A stretch of DNA of 37,150 nt. It comes from Flavobacteriales bacterium. GTDB taxonomy: Bacteria; Bacteroidota; Bacteroidia; Flavobacteriales_G; Salibacteraceae. Of the stretch, positions 17,108 to 23,154 are shown piece by piece; position 1 is the first letter of the stretch; the number at the start of each line of letters is the position of its first letter. Position numbers and translations under genes: made by a program. The notes under the pieces were generated by a model, which made no database searches, was not told the origin of the DNA, and saw only the letters and a program-made list of their open reading frames with translations. The stretch is from NCBI GenBank assembly GCA_020435995.1, contig JAGQYO010000006.1, positions 66,105 through 103,254 of the forward strand. Reading direction: 5' to 3'.

Positions 17108-17394
17108 GTGATAAAAACCAATATCAGCTAAAAGATTTGTTGAAGGCAATGCTCAAACAATACAAGCTTGAGGATAAATACGAAGAAGTAGATTTAAATA
17201 AGAACTGGCCACACCTTATGGGGACACTTATTGCCAATCACACAACCAAGCTGCAGATTCGTGATAAAAAACTATACGTAGAGCTGGATTCTCCCGTAAT
17301 TCGTCAAGAAATGAGCTATGGTAAATCGCTTATTATTGAGAAGGTTAATCAATTTGCAGGGCAAGAATTGATTAATGATGTAGTGCTTCGTTAA
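17104..17394 (+). CDS. DUF721 protein, DciA-like
   Basis: A 96-residue cytoplasmic protein with the DUF721 core: LKDLLKAMLKQYKLEDKYEE at the N terminus, then NKNWPHLMGTLIANHT (32-47) and KLYVELDSPVIRQEMSYGK, which fold as a KH-like domain in DciA. DciA loads the replicative helicase DnaB in bacteria lacking DnaC/DnaI loaders. This is a short form without the extended C-terminal tail of some DciA proteins, so the loader function is inferred from family and from the recF neighbour. Its start overlaps recF by 4 nt and its stop overlaps the convergent acyltransferase stop by 4 nt. Confidence 0.85.
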   Translation: MSDKNQYQLKDLLKAMLKQYKLEDKYEEVDLNKNWPHLMGTLIANHTTKLQIRDKKLYVELDSPVIRQEMSYGKSLIIEKVNQFAGQELINDVVLR

Positions 17395-18695
17395 GCGGCT
17401 TGGCTTAAGAAGTCAATCAAGATTTCCCTTGTCTTTAAAAGTTTTTCGTAGCCACTTTTGTTTTCCTTCTTAAGCTTGTTGAACCGAATTTGTTCGAACA
17501 CAAACAGCATGTAATCGTGGTACAAAACCGTAGCGTAGATGATCAGCCACAGCACAAACGGGGCGCTAATTCCCAACCAAAAATTAAAAGGAGCAATTCC
17601 CACAAAAGTTGCGAAACCCACGAATCCACTCAAGATCATTAATATTCCCATTCTCACGGGATTTTTAAAAAAATCGAGCTTTATTTTAGTTTTTACCATC
17701 TTATTCACTCTGCTAAAAGGCACATAGCTGATAAGAAACCCCAGTGTGTATACTGGAAATACAAAGATGCTTGCAAAAAAAGCAACCCACATGTTGGGTG
17801 CAGAAGAAGAGAAGTTTCTGTCGGCTACTTTAAGTTCCCTAAGCTGCTTGGTGTAGCCTTTTGCCAAAGTTCTAATTTCCTCAAGTTTTTCTGGGTTTTC
17901 AATTCTTGTTTGGTTGAGCAAATTGGCCACATTTTGTTCCGCAAGAAATCTTTTGTTTGATTCCACCCGCCACTTTAATGTGTTGATATTAAAAAGACTG
18001 CGCTGTATCACAATTAAATCTTCAAAAAGCCCAAGGTCGTCTCTCGATTCAACATGGATATAGATTTCTTTCATTTTTTGCTCTAGGTCACGAGAAAGTT
18101 GAGTGAGCGCTTTGCCGGGGTGTTCTTCGTATAATGCGCGGTAGTCGCTTATTGGAATGGGTTTTCCGATGGCAACAATGAGTTCAGTTCTGTAGTCGGC
18201 GGGATAGGTGTAATTTACTGTGCTAGGTAGAATCTGAAGATCGAGATCCCATCCATGTTTTTCCACTGCACCAAACGCCATCCTAGCGGTTCCTTTTTTA
18301 ATGCTTCTAAGATGTTTTTCTTGAACACAATCTCCTTCGGAAAAAATCATAACAATTTCGTTCTGACTTAAAAAGTCATAGCATTTTTCGAAGGTCTCAA
18401 CATTTCGCTGTACACTTTCGAGCCCATCTCTTTCTCTAAACATTGGAAGTTGCCTCATTTGCCAGAGCAGCCAATGAATAAAAGGCGTTTTAAAAATATC
18501 GCCTCTCACAATATAAATGACCTTTTTTAAAAACTGTGTGGGCAGTATTACGGGGTCCAGAAAACCATTGACATGGTTGCTCGTCAGAATGACTGGTTTG
18601 TTGGTTATCCAATTTTCGTTACCATGAATATAGAGTCTTTTAAAATAGATTCTGTAAAAAAACTGCATGAGTATCCAGAGAGGACGATAGAGCAT
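17391..18695 (-). CDS. Gpt2/Sct1-type lysophospholipid or glycerol-phosphate acyltransferase
   Basis: A 434-residue PlsC-superfamily acyltransferase. The catalytic block is SNHVNGFLDP with H41 and D47, i.e. HX5D rather than the usual HX4D; the longer spacing is known from yeast Gpt2/Sct1-like enzymes. The phosphate-binding FSEG is at 118-121 and LPSTVNYTYP follows as the fourth block. After the acyltransferase domain comes a helical region (about 215-290) and then three to four transmembrane segments between about 300 and 400, absent from simple PlsC proteins. It is probably an inner membrane enzyme acylating a glycerophosphate-type acceptor with fatty acid; the substrate is not certain. It stands alone, with its own candidate promoter. 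Confidence 0.85.
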   Translation of the reverse strand: MLYRPLWILMQFFYRIYFKRLYIHGNENWITNKPVILTSNHVNGFLDPVILPTQFLKKVIYIVRGDIFKTPFIHWLLWQMRQLPMFRERDGLESVQRNVETFEKCYDFLSQNEIVMIFSEGDCVQEKHLRSIKKGTARMAFGAVEKHGWDLDLQILPSTVNYTYPADYRTELIVAIGKPIPISDYRALYEEHPGKALTQLSRDLEQKMKEIYIHVESRDDLGLFEDLIVIQRSLFNINTLKWRVESNKRFLAEQNVANLLNQTRIENPEKLEEIRTLAKGYTKQLRELKVADRNFSSSAPNMWVAFFASIFVFPVYTLGFLISYVPFSRVNKMVKTKIKLDFFKNPVRMGILMILSGFVGFATFVGIAPFNFWLGISAPFVLWLIIYATVLYHDYMLFVFEQIRFNKLKKENKSGYEKLLKTREILIDFLSQAA

Positions 18696-18762: not shown

Positions 18763-18770
18763 TATTTTTG
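18763..18770 (+). promoter_or_regulatory. Candidate -7 box TATTTTTG for the membrane protein/M14/DUF2452 operon
   Basis: Exact TANNTTTG match, followed by CGCCAG, ending 7 nt before the ATG at 18778. If functional, transcription would begin at or within a few bases of that ATG, giving a leaderless mRNA and excluding the in-frame GTG at 18748 as the start. Confidence 0.45.
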
Positions 18771-18777
18771 CGCCAGT

Positions 18778-19494
18778 ATGGATAAAGTGATGATTGAGGT
18801 TGGGGGGATGAGGCTATACGAGCCCGAAACCTTTATTTCAGATATATACCTCACAATAGTTTGCTATTTTTTTTGGAGGGAAATCAAGAGGTCGAGTAAT
18901 ACAGATTATGGAAATTATTACGCCAATTTTTTCATCTTTTTGGCTATGGGGTCTGTTGTAGGTGGGGTGGCGCATCTTTTTGCTCACTACATCCCCAATA
19001 ATTACCTTCATGTACTCGCATGGTCATTATCTGCACTTGGGCTTTATTATGTTGAAGTAGCCAGCGCATTCGATTATCCTAAAAAGGTCAAAAAGGTTTT
19101 AAATTCTATTTTTTTAATTCAGTATATCGTGTCGGTCGGTGTTTTTGTCGGCTATCAACTTTTTGGCGACTTTGTTCACGATACTACTTTGGTTGGGGTT
19201 CCCGGCTTCACAGCAGTAAGCATTAGCATTGGAATATCGCTAGTAGGCTTTGTTGTACCGTTGCACTTAATCAAGTATTTCAAAGAAAGAGATAATGGTT
19301 CAGGCATCATTATTTTAGGTGTTTTTTTGAGCGCAGGAGCAGCCGTTGTACACGCTAAGAAATGGTCATTAAACTTATATATCAACTATAACGTTGTTGC
19401 CCACATTATCCTTTCACTTTGCTACTACATTTATATGCTAGGAATGAAAATTAAAGTTTCGGGAGGGGATGTTGAGTCTGAAGAAACTACTTGA
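18778..19494 (+). CDS. Multi-pass membrane protein, DUF6962/CREST-like candidate
   Basis: A 238-residue integral membrane protein with about seven hydrophobic segments (roughly 18-34, 48-66, 74-92, 110-128, 140-160, 172-190, 204-222). I prefer the ATG at 18778 over the GTG at 18748 because of the promoter octamer between them. Histidines cluster at membrane borders: H66 and H70 in VAHLFAHYIP, H78, H192 in VHAKKW and H209 in NYNVVAHI. Helix number and paired histidines recall the CREST hydrolase superfamily (ceramidases, PAQR receptors) and the DUF6962-type proteins of Bacteroidota, but I cannot confirm membership. The downstream M14 peptidase gene starts inside its last 26 nt, so the two are translationally coupled. 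Confidence 0.75.
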   Translation: MDKVMIEVGGMRLYEPETFISDIYLTIVCYFFWREIKRSSNTDYGNYYANFFIFLAMGSVVGGVAHLFAHYIPNNYLHVLAWSLSALGLYYVEVASAFDYPKKVKKVLNSIFLIQYIVSVGVFVGYQLFGDFVHDTTLVGVPGFTAVSISIGISLVGFVVPLHLIKYFKERDNGSGIIILGVFLSAGAAVVHAKKWSLNLYINYNVVAHIILSLCYYIYMLGMKIKVSGGDVESEETT

Positions 19495-20644
19495 TTTACA
19501 CGATAAAAGCCGTGAGATTCGACTGCCTTATCGCCGTTTTTCTTTTGAGCTTTTCTTGGAGCTTCTGGAGCAAAAATGTGCTTCACATCCAACGAGATTA
19601 AAAGAACAAATCGGAACTTCAATTGAAGGGAGACCAATTTATGCCATCTCCTTTGGAACGGGAAGTACCCGTGTTTTGCTTTGGACCCAAATGCACGGAA
19701 ATGAATCTACTGCCACACGTGCATTCTTTGATTTTTTTAATGCATCAGTAGCACACCCAGAGTATTTTGAAAAGGTTTTCGAGAGTTTAACCATAGTTTT
19801 TATTCCGGTGTTGAACCCCGATGGTATGGCGCGATTTCAACGTGCAAATGCCATTGGAATTGATCCTAATAGGGATGCGCGAGCACAACAAACTCCCGAA
19901 ATTAAAAGCCTTTTGACCTTTGCTAAGAATTTTGAACCCGATTGGTGCTTTAACCTGCACGATCAACGCAATTTGTTTAGTGTAAAGGGAAGCACGAATC
20001 CTGCTACCGTTTCGTTTTTGAGCCCAAGCCATTTTGGCAATGATAGGAAGAACCGGCTCGACGCCAAGCAAATGGTCGTGGCCCTTTCGAATGAAATTCA
20101 AACGTTGATTCCTAATTGTATGGGTAGATTCGATGAAGAATATTACCCCAGAGCCATCGGAGAAAAATTTCAGGAAATGGGATACCGAACCATCTTAATT
20201 GAAGCTGGCGGGGCTCCTAATGACCCAGAGCGTGAAGTGGCGCGTAAGATGAATTTTCTTTTGTTTTGTTCTGCTTTTCACTTAATTGGTAGTGAAAATT
20301 GGAAAAAGAGACCAGATAGAGATTATTACGCCATACCAGAAAACGATCAAAAAATGGTTGATCTTCTCATTAAGGGAGTTACACTGCATCAAAATGGACA
20401 TTCAATTGTATTGGACATAGCCATTGAACGTGTGGAAGAAAATGCGCCAAACGTGCAAGGATTTATTTATAAATCAATTGTAAAAGACTTAGGCGACTTA
20501 AAAGAATACGGTGGATATGAAGTAATTGATGCGCAGGGATATTATCTACATAGCGCACTTGAACTCAATGCGGCCGCATCTTTTGTATTAAAAAGCGATT
20601 CTAAGGGTGATTTGAAGATCGAAAATGGTTTTATCCTCGAATGA
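19469..20644 (+). CDS. M14-family zinc carboxypeptidase-like protein (cytoplasmic)
   Basis: A 391-residue metallohydrolase of the M14 family. Zinc ligands are H76 and E79 in QMHGNES and H164 in CFNLHDQRN; the proposed catalytic glutamate is E245 in TILIEAGG; NPDGMARFQR (116-125) supplies the carboxylate-binding region. There is no signal peptide, so it acts in the cytoplasm, unlike digestive carboxypeptidases. The region after about residue 270 does not resemble the M14 core and may be a separate beta-rich domain. The start at 19469 overlaps the preceding gene by 26 nt but gives a start (MLSLKKLLDLHDKSREIRL) that fits homologues as remembered. Its stop overlaps the DUF2452 gene by 4 nt. The substrate is unknown. 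Confidence 0.88.
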   Translation: MLSLKKLLDLHDKSREIRLPYRRFSFELFLELLEQKCASHPTRLKEQIGTSIEGRPIYAISFGTGSTRVLLWTQMHGNESTATRAFFDFFNASVAHPEYFEKVFESLTIVFIPVLNPDGMARFQRANAIGIDPNRDARAQQTPEIKSLLTFAKNFEPDWCFNLHDQRNLFSVKGSTNPATVSFLSPSHFGNDRKNRLDAKQMVVALSNEIQTLIPNCMGRFDEEYYPRAIGEKFQEMGYRTILIEAGGAPNDPEREVARKMNFLLFCSAFHLIGSENWKKRPDRDYYAIPENDQKMVDLLIKGVTLHQNGHSIVLDIAIERVEENAPNVQGFIYKSIVKDLGDLKEYGGYEVIDAQGYYLHSALELNAAASFVLKSDSKGDLKIENGFILE

Positions 20645-21087
20645 TGGAAGAAGAAAAATTTCAAAATCCGATCGATGACGATCACATAACGGAGAACCCC
20701 GGGAGTTTGGAATACCCACATCACAGAGGTAGCCAGCTTGTAAAGCCTGAAGACCAAGGTAGGGTGATGGGAAGGGCTATGGCCGCTATGGAGCAGCAAA
20801 CTGACCGACAAATGGCCCAAATTCAGGAGCAACTTGAAATATTGGCTCGACAGGCTCGAAACTTAAAAAGTAGAAAGGAAGTAAGCGAAAAAATTTACCA
20901 AGCGACCATCTCATTCGAACCCCTCATTGGACACACTTATTACTTGTATCAAAAAGAAGATTTAACTCATTTTTTATCCCTTCTTTCACCACAAGAATGG
21001 GGAAGAAGTTTAAAACATCAATTCAAAGCCAAAGTGTCACTCTTGGCAGACCACACTTGGGATGTGATGGAGTTGGCGAACTCTTGA
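20641..21087 (+). CDS. DUF2452 family protein
   Basis: A 148-residue soluble protein matching DUF2452 as I know it: an N-terminal ITENPGSLEYPHHRG, then GRVMGRAMAAMEQQTDRQM leading into a helix IQEQLEILARQARNLKSRKEV, and the block FEPLIGHTYYLYQKED, followed by LLSPQEWGRS and ending LLADHTWDVMEL. No catalytic motif is known for the family and no function has been assigned that I am aware of. Its ATG overlaps the stop of the M14 gene (ATGA), so it belongs to the same operon as the membrane protein and the peptidase. It has no membrane segment or signal peptide. Confidence 0.85.
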   Translation: MMEEEKFQNPIDDDHITENPGSLEYPHHRGSQLVKPEDQGRVMGRAMAAMEQQTDRQMAQIQEQLEILARQARNLKSRKEVSEKIYQATISFEPLIGHTYYLYQKEDLTHFLSLLSPQEWGRSLKHQFKAKVSLLADHTWDVMELANS

Positions 21088-21168: not shown

Positions 21169-23154
21169 ATGAAGAGGCTTTTATTACTAGTATTAATCGC
21201 AATCAATAACATAGCAACGGCCCAAACAATTGATACCATAATCACCATAAAAACCTTTACTGTTCAGGGAATTAGGCAAGCTGATTCGCTTGAAAACAAC
21301 CCGAGTAATCCCTACTTGATTGACCATTTAGAAATAAAAAACACGCCTATTCAGTCCACCTCAGATTTACTCGACAATGCCGTTGGAATAGATATTAAAA
21401 GTAGGAGTGGACTTGGTGTTCAAAGTGATTTGAGCATTCGAGGAGGAACCTTTGACCAATCATTACTTATGATTGACGGTGTAAAATTATCAGATCCGCA
21501 AACGGGTCATCATTTGATGGATGTTCCCGTGTTTATTGATCAAATAGAAAGAATTGAACAAATAAACAATGGTGGTTCACGCTGGTTTGGGCCATACGCA
21601 TTTAGCGGAGCGGTAAATTTAATCACCAAAAGAGCGAGCGAAAGTGGACTTCAACTAAGGCTTAGCGGTGGTGATTTTGGCTACCTCGATGCTGGGTTTT
21701 CAGTTTCTGGAGTTGGCAAAAATTCGAGTACCACACTCAGCTTTAATAGGAGGCAAAGCACAGGTTATATTACCAATACGGATTTTGATTTGAATAATAT
21801 TTTCCTTTCCTCAAATTTTGATCTAAATAAAACCACTTTTAAATTAAATGCCGGAATTACCGAGAAGAATTTTGGAGCACAAAATTTTTATACTTCTAGG
21901 TTTCCCAACCAATATGAGGCAACCCAAACCTATTTTGGTTCTCTTCAAGCCACACTTGATTTGGATCAACTCCAAATTACGCCACGGGTTTATTACCGAA
22001 GACATTATGACCGCTTTGAGCTTTACCGAAAGGGTGAAGGATGGTACGAAGAAGAGGGCCGTTATTTGGTGAGAAAAGAGACCCGCGATACAGTACCAGG
22101 GTGGTACACTGGCCCTAATTATCACCGCACAGATGTACAAGGAGCTGAGTTGAATTTTTCTTACACATCGGCCCTCGGCCAAACGTCTATTGGGGGTGAA
22201 TACCGTCATGAATTTGTGTGGAGTAACAACTTGGGAGAACCTTCCGATACCTTGAGTGATTTGGGAAATGCGGCTTACACCAAAACTGCAGATCGGGAAA
22301 ATTCAAGTTTATTTTTTGAACATAATGTTACCTTAAATCGGTTCAGAATATCAGCTGGGCTTCTTGCCAATTTTCATTCCGTGTACGGCAATGATGTTTT
22401 TCCTGGAGCTGACGTGAGCTATGATTTAAGCGATCAAGTGCGGGTATTTGCCGGTGCCAATCGAAACATGAGATTTCCCACATTTACTGATTTATACTAC
22501 AATTTGGGTGGGGCAGTTGGAAGTCGAAACTTAGAACCCGAACAATCACAGAACTATCAATTGGGTTTTAAATACCGATTCAATTGGTTTAGCGGGAGTA
22601 TTACCGGTTTTTATAGGCAGGGGCAAAACCTTATTGATTGGGTGAGGTTAAATGGTTCTCCAATAACACAAGCAGCCAACATTACCGAAGTAAATTTCAT
22701 TGGAATTGAAATGAATGAAGTGCTCGATTTGAGAAAACTGTATGATGATAAAAAAGTATTTTTTAACCAAATTACTTTTCGATATACGGGCATGGAGGCC
22801 GATAAATCCAGCGAGGGGTTCGAATCAAATTATGTGTTGGATTACCTCCGACATAAATTGAATGTAGGTGTCGACCATTCGTTAATCGCAAATTTGAATC
22901 TGGCTTGGAATTTTAAATACCAATACCGCGAAGGTGGGTATTATGACGCTAGCACAAAGAGTGAAATTCTTTTTGGTTCGTATGGCTTGTTGGATGTGCG
23001 TTTGTATCAAGAAACTCCCATCATATATTGGTATGTGGAAGTGGCCAATTTGTTTAACCGACAATATGAAGACATCGGCTTTGTGCAACAGCCCGGTAGG
23101 TGGTTGCGGGTAGGGATTAAATACAATATTTCATTCAAGAAAAAAGCCGAGTAA
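21169..23154 (+). CDS. TonB-dependent outer membrane receptor
   Basis: A 661-residue outer membrane transporter energised by TonB. A signal peptide (MKRLLLLVLIAINNIATAQ) precedes the plug domain at about 45-155, with SDLLDNAVGIDIKSRSGLG, LSIRGGTFDQSLLMIDGVK and FSGAVNLITKRAS. The remainder is a beta-barrel with alternating aromatic and polar strands, e.g. VFAGANRNMRFPTFTDLYYN, ending near YNISFKKKAE. It lacks the N-terminal carboxypeptidase-like domain and SusD partner of glycan utilisation systems, and most resembles the shorter BtuB/siderophore-type receptors. The ligand cannot be deduced; no cobalamin or siderophore genes and no recognisable riboswitch lie nearby. It converges on the FkbM gene with a 7-nt gap. 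Confidence 0.92.
   Translation: MKRLLLLVLIAINNIATAQTIDTIITIKTFTVQGIRQADSLENNPSNPYLIDHLEIKNTPIQSTSDLLDNAVGIDIKSRSGLGVQSDLSIRGGTFDQSLLMIDGVKLSDPQTGHHLMDVPVFIDQIERIEQINNGGSRWFGPYAFSGAVNLITKRASESGLQLRLSGGDFGYLDAGFSVSGVGKNSSTTLSFNRRQSTGYITNTDFDLNNIFLSSNFDLNKTTFKLNAGITEKNFGAQNFYTSRFPNQYEATQTYFGSLQATLDLDQLQITPRVYYRRHYDRFELYRKGEGWYEEEGRYLVRKETRDTVPGWYTGPNYHRTDVQGAELNFSYTSALGQTSIGGEYRHEFVWSNNLGEPSDTLSDLGNAAYTKTADRENSSLFFEHNVTLNRFRISAGLLANFHSVYGNDVFPGADVSYDLSDQVRVFAGANRNMRFPTFTDLYYNLGGAVGSRNLEPEQSQNYQLGFKYRFNWFSGSITGFYRQGQNLIDWVRLNGSPITQAANITEVNFIGIEMNEVLDLRKLYDDKKVFFNQITFRYTGMEADKSSEGFESNYVLDYLRHKLNVGVDHSLIANLNLAWNFKYQYREGGYYDASTKSEILFGSYGLLDVRLYQETPIIYWYVEVANLFNRQYEDIGFVQQPGRWLRVGIKYNISFKKKAE

Follow-up and report, generated by a model that had tools for sequence, protein, structure and literature searches.

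Three genes on the forward strand of a Flavobacteriales contig (JAGQYO010000006.1) overlap one another at positions 18,778 to 21,087 of the window, by which we mean the whole analysed stretch of 37,150 nucleotides (nt). They encode a membrane protein of the Pfam family DUF6962, a predicted zinc carboxypeptidase of family M14 and a small protein of the DUF2452 family, and the locus raises the question of whether these products act together and, if so, on what. The trio is a real, conserved overlapping operon in one bacterial family and is not limited to one genome, and the divergent acyltransferase gene beside it, which was overlooked in an earlier note on this DNA, is part of the conserved cassette. 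To the reading that DUF6962, M14 and the acyltransferase are functionally coupled in membrane-lipid or lipopeptide turnover we give a probability of roughly 0.35, and this reading does not claim DUF6962 as a ceramidase. The features concerned are the following.

18778-19494, plus strand: DUF6962 seven-helix membrane protein with a predicted CREST-like fold (PF22285, 107.3 bits against a cut-off of 27)
19469-20644, plus strand: predicted M14 zinc carboxypeptidase, cytoplasmic (Pfam Peptidase_M14, PF00246, 52 bits against a cut-off of 21.6)
20641-21087, plus strand: small, soluble DUF2452 protein of the human C1orf50 family (PF10504, 70.9 bits against a cut-off of 25)
17391-18695, minus strand: PlsC-like acyltransferase, divergent from the trio (PF01553, 60.8 bits against a cut-off of 23)
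18763-18770, plus strand: candidate Bacteroidota -7 promoter element, TATTTTTG, 7 nt upstream of the first start codon

Of the 42 genomes from the order, seven carried the full trio (G000, G199, G206, G208, G214, G219 and G247), and these belong to four genera. The adjacency is therefore not confined to the window's genome, and the restriction to one genome that the earlier note had named as fatal to its proposal does not hold. Every close relative of the window's DUF6962, found in seven genomes of the order, is followed downstream by M14 and then by DUF2452. Gene order, strand and overlaps are kept across the four genera at 41-50% identity of the trio membrane proteins to that of the window, and this recurrence is more than would be expected by chance; the lengths of the overlaps vary among loci, being 17-26 nt and 1-13 nt where the starts are clear. 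M14 was found in 8 of the 41 relatives searched and adjoins at least one trio partner in all eight; it was not sought as such in ten genomes of the order (G238-G247), and the M14 of G247 is known from its locus. In the phylogenetic trees, the trio M14s form one clade (93/90), as do the trio DUF2452s (100/94). Two loci cut by contig ends (L152 and L161) were omitted from set A2, and the DUF6962 tree omits L139 and L143, which are duplicates of L084 and L090.

Two further genomes carry parts of the arrangement. G202, the eighth genome, has DUF6962 and M14 overlapping by 4 nt, with DUF2452 located elsewhere in the genome, and G204 has M14 and DUF2452 overlapping by 32 nt, with DUF6962 elsewhere. 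The DUF2452 of G204 groups with proteins of another bacterial family (99/84), but its M14 is sister to the trio M14s on a long branch (91/87), which suggests that M14 and DUF2452 may have joined twice.

The overlaps within the window are exact by their coordinates, 26 nt between DUF6962 and M14 and 4 nt between M14 and DUF2452, just as had been described. DUF6962, M14 (counting close relatives of the window's M14 only) and DUF2452 are present in one copy each in the window's genome, and none of the three has an NCBIfam model above cut-off. A scan for sigma-70 promoters remained at chance level (7 found, 6.9 expected). The -7 consensus of Bacteroidota is TAnnTTTG according to an excerpt of PMC6847099, and TA[TC]TTTTG stands 4-7 nt upstream of the start codon in all seven loci inspected (G000, G199, G202, G206, G208, G214 and G247, with the trio genome G219 left out); for each locus, between 0.8 and 11% of shuffled sequences would be expected to contain this motif anywhere in the upstream 110 bases. 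With the element so close to the start codon in these loci, the mRNA of the operon would be nearly leaderless. The conserved overlaps and the single -7 element support the co-expression from one candidate promoter that had been proposed, and DUF6962, M14 and DUF2452 are probably read as one transcript.

The acyltransferase adjoins DUF6962 in all eight genomes that carry the DUF6962-M14 pair. At the other 23 acyltransferase loci examined, no trio gene was detectable within 1.5 kb in a search that used the proteins of the window itself and so overlooks divergent DUF6962s; the DUF6962 of the same genome, where one is listed, lies on another contig or, in G204, about 100 kb off. The recF-dciA flank is gone in G202, where the acyltransferase, DUF6962 and M14 are kept together, and mnmA lies on the far side of the G202 cassette, likewise in G199 and G208. 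Loss of this flank with the core retained suggests one ancestral locus, to which DUF2452 was a later addition or from which it was lost locally. The conserved core is the acyltransferase divergent from DUF6962-M14, with DUF2452 at seven of the eight loci, and a Pfam family of unknown function, DUF6962, is now tied to an acyltransferase and a carboxypeptidase. The 17391-18695 protein has the PF01553 domain in common with the OlsA/PlsC acyltransferases but differs from them in its length of 434 amino acids, with a long C-terminal part past the domain, and it falls below the NCBIfam TIGR00530 cut-off (49.8 against 102.95).

To place DUF6962 structurally, we turned to a model of its fold. The AlphaFold2 model, built from an alignment of 25 homologues, contains all seven helices, with a predicted local distance difference test score (pLDDT) of 89 and a predicted template modelling score (pTM) of 0.87, in agreement with the earlier description as a seven-transmembrane-like protein. 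The top five PDB matches in Foldseek were ACER3 and AdipoR1/2 (E 7.5e-3 to 5.2e-2), ACER3 being matched at E 7.5e-3 with prob 1.00. When the model was superimposed by VIA-align, AdipoR1 gave Z 17.3 (root-mean-square deviation 3.4 over 225 residues) and ACER3 gave Z 17.1 (3.7 over 213), so that the comparison with ceramidases recommended in the earlier note places ACER3 among the best matches; as controls, a designed fold resembling G-protein-coupled receptors (GPCRs) reached Z 16.2 and unrelated natural seven-transmembrane proteins 14.9 at most. In a viral fold library, models labelled as HlyIII and ceramidase were matched only at E 1.7e-3 and above. In the model, DUF6962 has the CREST-like seven-helix fold, which it shares with ACER3, PAQR/AdipoR and HlyIII (Z about 17), together with a His at the end of the second transmembrane helix (TM2) and another at the start of TM7.

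A sequence relationship to one CREST group, the ceramidases, is possible. Aligned by hhalign, DUF6962 scored 82% (E 1e-5) against Bacteroidota ceramidases and 62% against a second set, over 62-82 columns; in the control, two accepted CREST groups, ceramidase and HlyIII, reached 42% (E 2.7e-4) when compared with each other. The alignment covers the first two helices, where H66 falls on the TM2 His of the ceramidases and E15-P16 on their E-P, the N-terminal E-P..(T/N)..(D/N) stretch of bacterial ceramidases aligning with that of DUF6962. One seven-transmembrane protein, L258 (G088, 1420-2115), passes the Ceramidase cut-off (9.7e-10) and matches DUF6962 at 3.1e-5 under the cut-off (24.5 against 27 bits), and may thus form a sequence bridge between the two families. 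The DUF6962 profile gave no match among PDB sequences, and the DUF6962 protein of the window has no Pfam Ceramidase or HlyIII match. No mention of DUF6962 was found in the literature searched, nor a word beginning with 'Bacteroid' in the text of the CREST paper (PMC3146951).

That paper (PMC3146951) defines CREST proteins by three elements: an SxxxH closing TM2, an Asp opening TM3 and an HxxxH opening TM7. In ACER3, the Asp and each of the three His are essential, according to an excerpt of PMC9436119. H66 and H209 of DUF6962, at the TM2 end and the TM7 start, are universal in 65 of 65 distinct rows. The family differs from CREST at the remaining places. Most members lack the Ser of SxxxH: residue 62 of the window's protein is Gly, as it is in 20/20 rows of the bacterial family f23, and Ser stands at this position in 3/7 trio rows and 3/38 others. 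The CREST Asp position (aligned residue 81) is Ala, Gly or Ser in the trio, and the TM3 start of the window's protein has neither Asp nor Glu, its closest ionisable residue being His78. TM7 starts with N205-xxx-H209, NxxxH rather than HxxxH, and the first His position is Asn in 7/7 trio rows. Specific to the trio clade are H78, where most DUF6962 members carry Lys, and V206, where 55 of 58 other members carry Asp. The paired histidines of the earlier note, as an HxxxH pair of H66 and H70 in TM2, were rejected because H70 is not conserved, and 'His-rich' was an overstatement for a protein with 7 His in 238 residues (2.9%).

As the CREST active-site residues are absent, DUF6962 cannot be classed as a CREST hydrolase; it resembles CREST proteins in shape but not in active site, and perhaps works in the manner of a lipid-binding CREST-type protein. 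The earlier suggestion of a CREST-like lipid amidase thus stands for the fold, with AdipoR and ACER3 as best matches, and fails for the motif, where the Asp and the first TM7 His are absent and the Ser mostly so. An active lipid amidase or ceramidase whose freed head group is then processed by M14 would fit the fold of the model, the invariance of H66 and H209 and the acyltransferase neighbour. We consider it very unlikely, however, since two residues that ACER3 cannot do without, the general-base Asp and the first TM7 His, are missing from the trio clade, the Ser is limited to three of the seven trio rows, and strong OlsF-type synthases are missing from the trio genomes searched, as described below. 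Alternatively, the trio-clade DUF6962 could be an undescribed CREST branch with a metal site rewired to H66, H78 and H209 at the ends of TM2, TM3 and TM7, the clade-specific His78 replacing the TM3 Asp and the first TM7 His. It would then be a lipid-conjugate hydrolase or transfer protein, the product of which is trimmed by M14 with DUF2452 as partner and re-acylated by the acyltransferase. This possibility is quite unlikely in our estimate; if true, it would extend CREST chemistry. For DUF6962, the analysis supplies a predicted fold and a few residues that can be tested.

For the M14 protein, H76 (in H76-x2-E79), E79, H164, R125, N134, R135 and E245 are invariant in 37/37 family members; these 37 rows, used for the tree and the residue counts, are fewer than the 69 M14 matches of the phylum sample, of which the best were included. 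We take these residues to be the zinc ligands, the catalytic Glu, and the Arg and Asn-Arg for the substrate carboxylate, as in carboxypeptidase A. They are common to carboxypeptidase A, the cytosolic carboxypeptidases (CCPs) and the trio M14, which differs from those enzymes in belonging to a Bacteroidota subfamily that has a C-terminal part of its own and scores under all NCBIfam cut-offs. Among PDB sequences, its matches are family M14 carboxypeptidases. The N-terminus contains no hydrophobic stretch, and with H76, E79 and H164 in place, the full zinc site and the lack of an export signal agree with the first description. By all the carboxypeptidase residues checked, the enzyme is predicted to be catalytically complete and cytoplasmic.

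If the acyltransferase, DUF6962 and M14 are coupled as we prefer, DUF6962 would work beside the acyltransferase as a lipid-binding or atypically metal-bound protein, its ligand in the membrane being an acyl-lipid or a conjugate of lipid and peptide. M14 would cut C-terminal residues off the peptide part, or off small peptides, on the cytosolic side, and DUF2452 would be a soluble partner of M14 that was recruited later. Co-function of the three is our best but modest bet, and a functionally mixed operon is equally likely, in which DUF2452, a membrane protein and a general cytosolic carboxypeptidase unrelated to it have stayed side by side through vertical descent within a few related genera. 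We put the latter at somewhat less than even odds.

A number of results weigh against functional coupling, and those on distribution at the same time favour a mixed operon. Of 198 genomes sampled across the phylum, 23 carried DUF2452, 62 carried M14 (E up to 1e-10) and 29 carried DUF6962 (E 0.001); the 25 with a DUF6962 above the Pfam cut-off entered the co-occurrence test. The three families were independent: DUF2452 and M14 co-occurred in 10 genomes against 7.2 expected (p 0.23), DUF2452 and DUF6962 in 3 against 2.9 (p 1.0), and M14 and DUF6962 in 4 against 7.8 (p 0.11). Outside the host's family, a trio partner stood beside M14 at 0/29 loci with 1.5-kb flanks, as used for most loci, and at 0/18 with about 5 kb. 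A Bacteroidota-wide unit was therefore rejected; the conserved, co-occurring unit that had been envisaged holds in seven genomes of four genera in one family and not across Bacteroidota, where the phylogenetic distributions are unrelated, the other outcome by which the earlier note would be refuted. The trio proteins being single clades, the adjacency could reflect descent, and the flanking recF-dciA is likewise syntenic in most trio loci. The pairs are also broken, with G202 lacking DUF2452 and G204 lacking DUF6962 at the locus, and the G202 DUF6962 does not fall with the trio clade in the tree, where long branches meet. Elsewhere in the phylum, M14 lies between XRE-type and AsnC-type regulators (L209, L216, L217 and L218) or is followed by a sigma-70-like factor (L208, L211, L213, L215 and L219), with one member per cluster checked by Pfam, and these settings do not point to lipids. 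As for DUF6962 itself, only two of the five CREST catalytic residues are kept (H66 and H209), its hhalign comparison with HlyIII profiles gave no match (1.2% and 2.5%), and weak matches to 7TMR-DISM sensors occur in 8/25 members (best 2e-7) and 7/29. A mixed operon, in turn, does not readily account for overlaps and a -7 element that persist though the trio membrane proteins are down to 41% identity with the window's, for the union of acyltransferase, DUF6962 and M14 in G202 despite one changed flank, or for an M14 placed beside at least one partner in every relative that has it.

The 7TMR-DISM matches leave room for a receptor role, in which DUF6962 would be a 7TMR-DISM-like membrane sensor setting the activity of the cytosolic M14, with DUF2452 as adaptor. 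The weak 7TMR-DISM_7TM matches are accompanied by single MASE3 and HisKA_7TM matches, the missing CREST catalytic residues would suit a sensor, and the AdipoR fold is a fold of receptors too. Nevertheless, no signalling domain is fused to DUF6962 or adjoins it, the structure matches place CREST over rhodopsins and GPCRs, and the neighbours are lipid enzymes; we thus regard a sensor as unlikely.

A last point against coupling concerns the substrate. Genomes in which the unit recycles amino-lipids would be expected to produce such lipids, so we searched for PF13444 (Acetyltransf_5), which we take to be the N-acyltransferase domain of OlsB, OlsF and GlsB. The roles of these proteins in the pathway are described in PMC11631085, of which an excerpt was available. 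Strong PF13444 matches (E below 1e-15) occurred in 0/6 trio genomes against 12/19 others in the family (Fisher p 0.015, not corrected for relatedness and with the trio genome G247 left out), and two of the six trio genomes had weak matches. The window's genome itself has no OlsB/OlsF-type PF13444 match. With OlsF-type synthases missing from all six searched trio genomes, an amide-linked amino-lipid substrate is disfavoured, and so, as judged from gene content, is amino-lipid recycling by the trio, the amino-lipid version of the amide-linked lipid role first suggested.

DUF2452 is less conserved at the locus. The trio protein belongs to the same Pfam family, PF10504, as human C1orf50, from which it differs in being bacterial and in an operon with M14. 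C1orf50 was reported in 2024 to lack bacterial orthologs, as stated in an excerpt of PMC11842435; in contrast to that report, DUF2452 is present in 23 of the 198 Bacteroidota genomes, and the family gains a bacterial operon context. Its structure prediction was of low quality (pLDDT 56, pTM 0.28), with five close sequences only, and nothing below E 0.36 was found among PDB sequences. Some members are longer, 262-297 amino acids, with an extra N-terminal part (L005, L009, L011, L012 and L017). In six non-trio genomes of the host's family, a DUF4440-like protein stands beside DUF2452, often as the next gene downstream (L166, L168, L169, L171 and L173 by map, L172 by coordinates, with one member checked by Pfam).

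DUF6962 also occurs in other settings. In G204, G205 and G221 (L193, L199 and L200), the gene after a non-trio DUF6962 of the host's family encodes a fatty-acid hydroxylase, a lipid context that speaks for the coupled reading, and the one hydroxylase scanned matches the ornithine lipid hydroxylase OlsE under the cut-off. In family f23, DUF6962 is followed by an amidohydrolase at 5/6 loci (L185 and L187-L190), with no more than two small genes in between, and an HlyIII gene lies about 10 kb from DUF6962 in several genomes (G026:C16, G038:C4 and G054:C18). Two adjoining DUF6962 matches, one of them with two stop codons, were seen at G201:C74:209864-211475 and are perhaps a decayed duplicate.

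A defence system was rejected as a reading of the locus, since neither the trio nor the acyltransferase matched any PADLOC anti-phage model (E up to 0.01). Downstream of the trio, the window encodes a TonB-dependent receptor (21169-23154). The downstream gene differs in L140 (9368-11335), where it encodes a secreted peptidase of family M1 that carries a type IX signal, with a relative in L142.

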